Shown: one piece after another, positions 16,600 through 22,817 of the stretch
Layout: every line of letters begins with the position of its first letter
Numbering within the stretch: the stretch's first letter is position 1
Origin: an uncultured Pelagibacteraceae bacterium
GTDB lineage: Bacteria > Pseudomonadota > Alphaproteobacteria > Pelagibacterales > Pelagibacteraceae
Assembly (NCBI GenBank): GCA_902511185.1
Contig: CABXEK010000004.1
Span: 1-59,682, forward strand
Length of the DNA stretch: 59,682 nt
Direction of reading: 5' to 3'
Translations under genes and position numbers: made by a program
The notes under the pieces: model-generated
The model's database searches: none
Told to the model about the DNA's origin: nothing
Seen by the model: only the letters and a program-made list of their open reading frames with translations

Positions 16600-18090
16600 A
16601 TGAAATTATTTTTTATACTTGGTAATCAATTATTTCCATCAAAATACATAGACCGCTTCAAAAAGGACCATGTGTTTTTTATGGCAGAAGATAATGGATT
16701 ATGTACCTATGAAAAACATCATAAGCAAAAAATCCTACTATTTCTATCTTCTATGCGGTCTTACGCAGATAACTTAAAGAAAAATAAATTTAAATTAGAC
16801 TATCTGAAAATTGAAGATAAGGATTTTAAAGATGATTATTTCAAAAAATTAAAAAAAATAATAACTAAAAATAAAATAACCGAAATTTCAAGCTTTGAAG
16901 TTGAAGATAAATTTTTTGAAACAAAAATTAACGATTTTTTAAAAAAACAAAAAATCAATTGGAATGTTATTCAAACTCCAATGTTTTTAAATTCAAGAGA
17001 TGAATTTAAAAATTATTTAGGAAAATCAAAAAAGCCATTTATGGCAACATTTTACAAAGAAGTTAGGAGAAAATCTGGAATTTTAATGGGTGCAGATGGT
17101 AACCCAATTGGTGGCAAGTGGAGTTTTGATGAAGATAATAGAAATAAACTGCCTAAAGACATTTCAATTCCAAAATTTCCAAGGATAAACGAAACCAATC
17201 ATACAAAAAAATTAAAACCAATAATTGAGAAATTATTTAAAGACCATCCTGGAAGCACTGATAATTTTTGGCTAGCGACAGAGTATGACGATGTTGTTAA
17301 ACTTTTAAATTTTTTTATAAAAGAAAAATCAAATTTATTTGGTGATTATGAAGATGCTGTTAATCAAAAAGATAACATATTATTTCATAGCGCACTAAGT
17401 CCTTATATCAATTTAGGATTAATAACTCCCGAATTTATTATTCAAAAAATTTTGGATTTCCATAAGAAAAATAAAATAAGAATGAACTCCCTTGAAGGAT
17501 ATATTCGTCAGGTAATTGGGTGGCGAGAATTTATGAGAGGTATCTATCAAGGGTATTCGGAAAAAATGGAAGCTAGAAATTTTTTTAAACAAAATAGAAA
17601 AATGAAAAATTCTTGGTATAAAGGAACTACAGGATTACCACCTTTAGATCATGCGATTAAAAATGCAGTTAATCATGGATGGTCTCATCATATCGAAAGG
17701 TTAATGATTTTATCTAACATAATGAACCTTTGCGAGATTAAGCCCACAATTGTTTACAAATGGTTTATGGAGATGTTTGTAGACTCATCTGATTGGGTAA
17801 TGGTTCCAAACGTATATGGAATGGGATTATTCAGCGACGGAGGTATTTTTGCAACGAAACCTTATATTTGTGGTTCAAGTTATTTTATGAAGATGATGGA
17901 TTTTAAAAAAGGGGATTGGTGTAATACGATGGATGGATTGTATTGGAGGTTCATTGATCGAAATAGAAAGTTCTTTCTAACTAATCCTAGACTTTCTATG
18001 ATGGTTCGAATTTTTGATAAAATGAAGGATGAAAGAAAAAAAATGATTTTATCTGAAGCAGATAAGTTCATAAAATTAAACACGAACTAA
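16600..18090 (+). CDS. Cryptochrome/photolyase-related protein (FeS-BCP/PhrB-like clade)
   Basis: N-terminal ILGNQLFP, EGYIRQVIGWREFMRGIY, HGWSHHIERLMILSNIMNLCEIKPTIVYKWFMEMFVDSSDWVMVPNVYGMGLFSDGG. Confidence 0.93.
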   Translation: MKLFFILGNQLFPSKYIDRFKKDHVFFMAEDNGLCTYEKHHKQKILLFLSSMRSYADNLKKNKFKLDYLKIEDKDFKDDYFKKLKKIITKNKITEISSFEVEDKFFETKINDFLKKQKINWNVIQTPMFLNSRDEFKNYLGKSKKPFMATFYKEVRRKSGILMGADGNPIGGKWSFDEDNRNKLPKDISIPKFPRINETNHTKKLKPIIEKLFKDHPGSTDNFWLATEYDDVVKLLNFFIKEKSNLFGDYEDAVNQKDNILFHSALSPYINLGLITPEFIIQKILDFHKKNKIRMNSLEGYIRQVIGWREFMRGIYQGYSEKMEARNFFKQNRKMKNSWYKGTTGLPPLDHAIKNAVNHGWSHHIERLMILSNIMNLCEIKPTIVYKWFMEMFVDSSDWVMVPNVYGMGLFSDGGIFATKPYICGSSYFMKMMDFKKGDWCNTMDGLYWRFIDRNRKFFLTNPRLSMMVRIFDKMKDERKKMILSEADKFIKLNTN

Positions 18091-18095
18091 ACTTT

Positions 18096-18425
18096 ATGTA
18101 TATTTCTATTACAGGACTTAAATCAAAAAATTTTTTATCAAAAATTAAGTTTTGGATGTTGGCAGCTCCTGCCTTTAAAGCAGCTCAAAAAGCTGAAGGT
18201 AATTTATTTTGTGAAGTAAAAAGTGCCAATGGTTATCAGCACACAATAACTGCATGGGAAAATCGAAATTTTATGACAAAATATTTAATGAGTAAACCAC
18301 ATGCAAAAGCAATGAAGAATTTTAGATCAATTGCAACGGGATCAACGTATGGTTATGAAGGTAGTCAAATACCATCTTGGAAAGAAGCACTAGAGCTCTG
18401 GCAAAAAAATTATAAAGAATACTGA
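18096..18425 (+). CDS. Hypothetical protein (possible monooxygenase-like/ABM-fold)
   Basis: 109 aa; ...YQHTITAWENRNFMTKYLMSKPHAKAMKNFRSIATGSTYGYEG. Confidence 0.65.
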   Translation: MYISITGLKSKNFLSKIKFWMLAAPAFKAAQKAEGNLFCEVKSANGYQHTITAWENRNFMTKYLMSKPHAKAMKNFRSIATGSTYGYEGSQIPSWKEALELWQKNYKEY

Positions 18426-20160: not shown

Positions 20161-21300
20161 TTAATTAAATTTAGAAATTATTTTTGGGATATAAATTTTA
20201 AAATTAAAAAATCCTTTATTACAGTATTGCCAAGCTAATTGATCAAGATCTCTATATAAAAAATTCATTTTTAGATTATTTGAATTTAGATAATCTAAAT
20301 TTTCTCCAACAGTAGGATATAAGCTATAATAGTTTTCAATATTTTTAATTTCACTTATATCGATTACTTCACAATCAATAGATTTATCTTTTAACCTTTG
20401 TTTTTGATCTTCCATCAAAAGAGACTTAAATTTTACTAATTTTTCACTTAGTTTTATTGATCTATTTTCATTTTTGTTTGAAACAATATAAATTTTTTCA
20501 AACTTATTTTCTTTAAAATCAGTGATTTCAAAAGATATATTATTTTCAAAAATTAATAGATTTTCATCTTCAATATTTTGTGGGTTAATGAATTCTCGTT
20601 TTATTAAGGGGTAAGATTTTTCAGAGACCTTTGGAAGAGCATTTTCATTTAATTTAATATTTTGAAATCTATTATTTGTAAACTTTTTAATATTCCACTC
20701 ACTTGCAAGGTAATGTTTTCCTTGTGTTTGAATTCCTGCTACCCATCTCCAACCAAGAGTATTTGATGCAGCGTCTCCATCGTAAAGATGTTGTAAAAAA
20801 AGCTCAGCTCCTAATTGCCATGGTAGTCCTAGAGTAAATATCCAGATGCTCGCAAACCACATTCTAGTATGATTATGAAGATAGTTATTTTCTTTTAGTT
20901 CATTTACCCACTGATTAAAGCATTCTAATTCAGTTTTTCCTTCAATTGCATTTAGATAATTTTGATTACCCTTAAATTCATTTCTAAGATTATTTAATTC
21001 CTTTAAATAATCTGACCAAACGTTTGGTCTTAACTCTAACCAACCTTTCCAATAAGTTCGCCATAAAACTTCTTGAATAAACTTTTCATTTTTTACAAAA
21101 GAGAATTTTTTAAGAGATTTATTAATCACCTCTAATTCATTTATTACCCCATGTGTTATGTAGGGAGATAAACATGAAATATTAGATCTATTATTAGGAC
21201 CGAAATCAAAATTTCTTAATTTAGAGTATTCAGAAAGATTATTTTCAACAAAATAATTTAATTTATCAACGGCCTTAGCCCTCGAAGCTTCAAATTCCAT
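20161..21300 (-). CDS. Photolyase/cryptochrome-like protein: FAD-binding domain first, extra C-terminal domain
   Basis: Starts in the FAD domain (RSNISCLSPYITHGVINE, HNHTRMWFASIWIFTLGLPWQLGAELFLQHLYDGDAASNTLGWRWVAGIQTQGKHYLAS) with no N-terminal antenna domain. Confidence 0.88.
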   Translation of the reverse strand: MEFEASRAKAVDKLNYFVENNLSEYSKLRNFDFGPNNRSNISCLSPYITHGVINELEVINKSLKKFSFVKNEKFIQEVLWRTYWKGWLELRPNVWSDYLKELNNLRNEFKGNQNYLNAIEGKTELECFNQWVNELKENNYLHNHTRMWFASIWIFTLGLPWQLGAELFLQHLYDGDAASNTLGWRWVAGIQTQGKHYLASEWNIKKFTNNRFQNIKLNENALPKVSEKSYPLIKREFINPQNIEDENLLIFENNISFEITDFKENKFEKIYIVSNKNENRSIKLSEKLVKFKSLLMEDQKQRLKDKSIDCEVIDISEIKNIENYYSLYPTVGENLDYLNSNNLKMNFLYRDLDQLAWQYCNKGFFNFKIYIPKIISKFN

Positions 21301-22199: not shown

Positions 22200-22817
22200 T
22201 TAGGTTAAATTTGCTTTAATAACGCTTTCTATTTGGCTAGGGCTTTGAGCGCCTGAAATAAAATCTTTCCCTATCTCAAAAAAAGGAACACCATTAATAT
22301 TTTTTTCTCTAGCATCTGACATTTTGAAATTTACAAGTTCGATATTTTTTTCATTAATAAATTCTTTAAATACGTTTTCAGAAATATTATTTTGTTTAGC
22401 AATATTAATTAGAATATCTAAATTTCCTATATCAAGCCCATCAACAAAATATGATTGATATATTTTTTCTTTAATTTCATTACCTAAATTAAATTGTTCA
22501 CTTAAAATAATAAGTAAATGAGAAAGAACAGTGTTTGGGGTTTTTTTTATTTCATCTAAATTAAAATTCATTCCAGACTCTTTTGCTTTTAATCTCATAT
22601 TTTCATACATTGGAGTAGCATAATCTTTTCCACCAAACTTTATTTCAAGATATTTCTCTCTAGAAATTCCTTCAACTGGCATATCAGGATTTAACTGAAA
22701 AGGGATATGTCGAATATCAAATTTAATATTAGAAAATTTTTTTAACGCGTTATTTAAATTTGTATGTCCAATGAAACACCATCCACAAATAGTGTCAGCA
22801 AAAACATTTATTTTCAT
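22200..22817 (-). CDS. DsbA family oxidoreductase (FrnE-like)
   Basis: INVFADTICGWCFIGHTNL, FQLNPDMPVEGISREKYL, NINGVPFFEIG...SGAQSPSQIE. Confidence 0.9.
   Translation of the reverse strand: MKINVFADTICGWCFIGHTNLNNALKKFSNIKFDIRHIPFQLNPDMPVEGISREKYLEIKFGGKDYATPMYENMRLKAKESGMNFNLDEIKKTPNTVLSHLLIILSEQFNLGNEIKEKIYQSYFVDGLDIGNLDILINIAKQNNISENVFKEFINEKNIELVNFKMSDAREKNINGVPFFEIGKDFISGAQSPSQIESVIKANLT

Follow-up and report, generated by a model that had tools for sequence, protein, structure and literature searches.

A probable NewPHL-class photolyase in SAR11 and a possible antenna-domain origin of its C-terminal domain

Background

How does a photolyase come to carry its catalytic FAD domain in front, and are the proteins that show this reversed order ancestral or derived? 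The question is raised by a gene in the stretch of DNA analysed here (the window, 59,682 nucleotides), which is contig 4 of a 0.97-Mb assembly, about 76% complete, of a SAR11/Pelagibacteraceae bacterium. A sequence-only reading of the locus had noted the reversed order, had proposed circular permutation, or else a replaced antenna domain, as ways to it and had implied that the architecture is new. The novelty does not stand, because a characterised family of this layout, NewPHL/Phr7, is already described (PMC9426592, PMC13274461): the reversed layout has been known since 2020, and the window gene, which we assign to this family below, is an ordinary, expected member. The question that remains of interest is how the order arose.

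Domain layout of the window protein

The photolyase gene occupies positions 20161..21300 on the (-) strand and encodes 379 amino acids followed by a stop codon, as delimited by the ORF, Pfam and the relatives. The stop-to-stop frame around this ORF (21300..20161, (-) strand) comprises only 381 codons' worth of residues (381 aa), and the upstream neighbour, a PsiE-family gene, is separated from it by a gap of 6 bases, so there is no room for an N-terminal antenna domain. An overlooked upstream antenna domain, or a frameshift, was considered and is excluded, as the frame closes two codons before the photolyase start. Downstream lies a MarC gene in convergent orientation on the opposite strand, which leaves no separate antenna gene on that side either. 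ORF, Pfam match and frame thus agree with the sequence-only reading that the protein begins directly in its FAD domain, and the sequence motifs quoted there are present in the ORF.

Pfam recognizes a single domain in the protein, FAD_binding_7, at residues 74-198 (E 1.3e-16), and the match spans only positions 1-127 of the 203 in the profile. From Pfam and residue mapping, we delimit an N-terminal catalytic FAD domain of residues 1-210 (20671..21300, (-) strand). Alignments place behind it a poorly conserved linker of residues 211-244 (20569..20670, (-) strand), in which the cysteines found in this region of Phr4/6 proteins are all absent. Residues 245-379 (20164..20568, (-) strand) form a C-terminal alpha/beta domain, which we call the Z-domain; it is equated with the published Z-domain by layout, not by sequence. 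Near its end the alignments reveal a conserved motif, W-x4-KGFF-x-FK-x3-P, at residues 357-372 (20185..20232, (-) strand). No Pfam family scores above its cut-off in the Z-domain (residues ~245-379), either in the window protein alone or in 33 relatives, and a PDB sequence search returned no relative covering it. An AlphaFold2 model of residues 246-379, built from 66 SAR11 rows, has a mean pLDDT of 77.7 and the order strand-helix-strand-long helix-strand-helix-strand-helix, followed by C-terminal helices, with the last ~25 residues uncertain; this alternation of strands and helices bears out the earlier impression that about 140 C-terminal residues look alpha/beta. The full-length model, built from SAR11-only rows, has a pLDDT of 53, which is too poor for domain packing to be read from it.

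Catalytic residues and electron relay

Residues were mapped onto E. coli photolyase in the numbering of the literature, which starts at the Thr after the initial Met. E77, W80, R81, N143, R146 and M147 of the window protein correspond to E. coli E274, W277, R278, N341, R344 and M345, and D174, D176, N180, W161 and W184 to D372, D374, N378, W359 and W382. Nearly all of the mapped positions, which are catalytic or contact FAD, are kept, and fifteen are identical in 33/33 family members (in E. coli numbering Y222, R226, L237, S238, E274, W277, R278, N341, R344, M345, W359, D372, D374, N378 and W382). The position of E. coli R342 is taken by H144 in the window protein and by His across the 33 members, with Trp in one. 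W306, which is the outer Trp in the triad of class I enzymes, shows no conservation across the 33 members and the equivalents of W359 and W382 are kept, so that a Trp dyad remains, such as has been described for the NewPHL of Dinoroseobacter shibae (PMC8948257). The Fe-S cysteines of Phr4/6 are absent from the alignments of the window protein and its relatives; Phr7 likewise lacks Fe-S cysteines of the Phr4/6 type (PMC9426592).

Family assignment and distribution

These features, taken with the kinship of the protein to other alphaproteobacterial members, make it very likely that the window gene encodes a NewPHL-class photolyase, a SAR11 member of a family whose characterised enzymes we know by description. 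In a tree of FAD domains, whose final version leaves out one fragmentary row, all sampled NewPHL rows fall into one group with support of 100/99 to 100/100, and the SAR11 protein groups with proteins of the same layout from Roseobacteraceae and other Alphaproteobacteria. The N-terminal PF00875 antenna domain and the Trp triad that define class I are absent from the window protein, and with the DASH profile TIGR02765 it scores 59.8 bits against a cut-off of 317.

The characterised NewPHLs, UniProt A8LJA9 of D. shibae and M7YZC8 of Methylobacterium mesophilicum, share with the window protein the FAD-first order, the Z-domain, the Trp dyad and the lack of Fe-S cysteines, and their hosts are likewise alphaproteobacterial; the window protein differs in its SAR11 host, in its identity of 33-34% to the Ruegeria member and in that its activity is predicted. 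Prochlorococcus Phr7, described as an N-terminal FAD domain plus a C-terminal 'Z-domain' (PMC9426592), has the same layout, also occurs in marine surface plankton and, like the window protein, is accompanied in its host by further photolyases, one of them a prokaryotic (6-4)-type enzyme without Fe-S; its host is cyanobacterial and the likeness rests on the description. The SPL (Xu et al. 2021, as far as PMC9649867 describes them), Phr4-Phr5 and Phr6 proteins also have the FAD domain first and no N-terminal antenna domain, and SPL/Phr4/6 are the group nearest to NewPHL in the FAD-domain tree. What they possess and the window protein lacks are conserved cysteines behind the FAD domain and a domain recognisable as antenna-type, which either has its own gene downstream or is fused on at the C-terminal side. 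E. coli Phr, a class I CPD photolyase, resembles the window protein in the fold of its FAD domain and in nearly all of its catalytic residues, but carries an N-terminal PF00875 antenna, a Trp triad and a full-length FAD_binding_7 domain.

The best 80 matches in our genome contig collection all belong to Pelagibacteraceae or SAR11; across these 80 SAR11 loci the whole photolyase is 80-89% identical, and the C-terminal part alone is 78-91% identical among SAR11 relatives. Within the window's genus the gene is present in 32/35 genomes. Relatives that cover the full length in the same domain order, at 31-48% identity, are found across Alphaproteobacteria, namely in Roseobacteraceae, Rhizobiaceae, Sphingomonadaceae, Caulobacteraceae and Azospirillaceae (with Ruegeria, Peteryoungia, Novosphingobium, Asticcacaulis and Niveispirillum as named genera), where their annotation, if any, is 'FAD-binding domain-containing protein'. 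The SAR11 members are 33-34% identical to the Roseobacter-type member from Ruegeria, and the strong matches to that protein in a sample of 399 Pseudomonadota genomes lie in Alphaproteobacteria without exception (23/23). Outside SAR11, conservation is lower in the Z-domain than in the FAD part, and the Z-domain has the same extent in 33 relatives. Given that conservation runs along the whole length in SAR11 and in the alphaproteobacterial relatives, the domain layout is not due to chance. SAR11 bacteria, which rank with the most abundant in the sea, are thereby added to the hosts of the reversed-order photolyase type, and the gene is near-universal in them.

Two scans of viral contigs found no relative. 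Separately, phage records labelled as Listeria, Staphylococcus, Enterococcus or Acinetobacter phage match the FAD domain only, at 24-30% identity; several of them, short and unannotated, may be sequence from the host deposited under a phage name.

Proposed function

We propose that the window protein is a flavoenzyme powered by blue light; its most likely reaction is the reversal of cyclobutane pyrimidine dimers (CPDs), with a preference for single-stranded DNA. NewPHLs are photolyases that repair CPDs in single-stranded DNA, as Emmerich et al. 2020 (doi 10.1093/nar/gkaa1147) are cited in PMC9426592 and PMC13274461. By analogy with such characterised relatives, which are the source for the activity, the cofactor and the idea that the Z-domain seals the FAD site, specificity for CPDs in single-stranded DNA seems likely, if held less firmly than the family assignment. 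The N-terminal helical domain would bind FAD and the flipped-out lesion, and photo-excited FADH- would hand an electron to the dimer. Photoreduction of FAD would proceed through a relay of two Trp residues where three are usual; the two are W184 and W161 (E. coli W382 and W359). In front of the FAD domain there is no antenna chromophore domain. The C-terminal Z-domain would cover the FAD site, taking the place of the C-terminal portion that usual FAD domains have and this one lacks; in NewPHLs it reportedly closes off this site. The SAR11 NewPHL gene stands beside a second photolyase and without a DASH cryptochrome passing the family cut-off, which was reached in 0/37 SAR11 and related genomes. 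The DASH result fits NewPHL as the single-stranded DNA photolyase in place of DASH, a substitute role that it is said to have.

Alternatively, the protein could be a cryptochrome-like photoreceptor that has kept FAD photochemistry and lost DNA repair, with the Z-domain as its signalling output. Non-repairing cryptochromes arose several times within the photolyase family, and the lower conservation of the Z-domain outside SAR11 would agree with such a change. However, the equivalents of the lesion-binding and catalytic residues E274, W277, N341, M345 and N378 are among those invariant in the 33 relatives, a further photolyase gene, of the (6-4) type, adjoins the NewPHL gene in 73/80 SAR11 loci, and characterised NewPHL members repair CPDs, as PMC9426592 relates with reference to Emmerich 2020. 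We therefore consider a photoreceptor very improbable and retain CPD repair as the predicted function.

Origin of the C-terminal domain

A Z-domain profile of 54 sequences aligns to the C-terminal or downstream domains of Phr5/6 with a profile-profile E-value of 7.7e-5 (62%), and the alignment is colinear from end to end over 128 columns; 0/100 block shuffles and 0/50 reversed-rotated versions were as good. Against the antenna domains of class I the same profile gives weak matches (E 0.003-0.004, 11.5% probability), with 2/100 shuffles as good. For its part, the Phr5/6 domain is matched to class I antenna domains at 95-96% by hhalign (E 1e-8 to 5e-9), and in the Deinococcus C-terminus PF00875 matches with E 7e-4, below the Pfam cut-off. 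Searches with single-sequence HMMs were marginal. Foldseek with the Z-domain model gave no match at E < 0.001, and the best E-values belong to Rossmann-like dehydrogenases; by TM-score, the top of the 50 matches listed are the prokaryotic (6-4) photolyases 8ijy and 4dja (0.54; probability 0.93 and 0.84). The antenna likeness anticipated by the sequence-only reading is thus seen against Phr5/6 by profile-profile comparison, where it is moderate yet exceeds the controls, and is weak against class I; in structure it shows in the ranking by TM-score and not in the Foldseek E-values.

The surroundings of the sister group bear on the route. In 7/7 loci, alphaproteobacterial SPL/Phr4-like genes have a Phr5-like gene directly downstream, and on a plasmid of Deinococcus sp. 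AJ005 the Phr4-like and Phr5-like parts are fused. Since each of these FAD-only SPL genes is followed by a small antenna-type gene, 'antenna-less' SPLs may carry their antenna as a separate polypeptide. In the tree, NewPHL and Phr4/6 lie together on one side, opposite class I and DASH, with support of 100/100, which drops to 72/63 once the distant prokaryotic (6-4) group is added; Phr7 was independently reported to be closest to Phr4/6 (PMC9426592).

From these observations we consider an antenna-type origin of the Z-domain, by whichever route, fairly probable. Because the antenna-like gene of the sister group is separate and directly downstream, joining of the gene for a short Fe-S photolyase (SPL/Phr4) to its downstream phr5 antenna gene, with the antenna degenerating into the Z-domain in the NewPHL line, is an equal or better route than permutation, and we give such a fusion about an even chance. 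The gene order in the seven loci, the fused Deinococcus protein, the clear antenna character of the Phr5/6 domain, the colinear match that beats 100/100 block shuffles and the tree against class I and DASH all argue for it, while the weak likeness of the Z-domain to class I antenna domains taken alone and the lower support in the presence of the (6-4) group weigh against it. The circular permutation of a two-domain photolyase can draw on the same likeness in profile, shuffles and TM-score, but no duplicated or intermediate architecture was seen, and the separate downstream antenna genes of the sister group make fusion the simpler account; we regard permutation as unlikely. It could also be that the Z-domain has no kinship with antenna domains and was acquired independently as an alpha/beta domain, in keeping with the lack of a significant Foldseek match and the marginal single-sequence searches; against this stand the profile comparison with Phr5/6, which is colinear throughout and better than every shuffle, and the place of two photolyases at the head of the TM-scores. 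We hold an unrelated origin to be a lesser but real possibility.

We therefore hypothesize, tentatively, that the Z-domain of NewPHLs goes back to an antenna domain which was encoded by a separate phr5-type gene, downstream in the SPL/Phr4 sister group, and which has degenerated. A fusion origin is compatible with the function proposed above. If the hypothesis is true, SPLs and NewPHLs would not be primitive photolyases from before the antenna was gained but a single lineage with reversed order, whose antenna partner was split off, fused behind or eroded, and proposals that SPLs or NewPHLs resemble the ancestor of the family would be weakened.

Neighbouring genes

The second photolyase of the window is a separate protein of the prokaryotic (6-4) type, encoded at 16600..18090 on the (+) strand and composed of a DPRP domain and an FAD domain. 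Its sequence aligns lengthwise to Agrobacterium PhrB (PhrB/DPRP type) with E ~1e-84; relative to PhrB the stretch with the CxxC pair is deleted and the remaining Fe-S cysteines are unaligned, and the protein is probably an Fe-S-less, PromaPL-like form. An ORF of 109 aa at 18096-18425 (+), without a Pfam match, occurs at the same place in 1/80 SAR11 loci (4-kb flank). A DSBA-family gene near the photolyase, at 22200-22817, is patchy in its occurrence and was found in 10/80 SAR11 loci.
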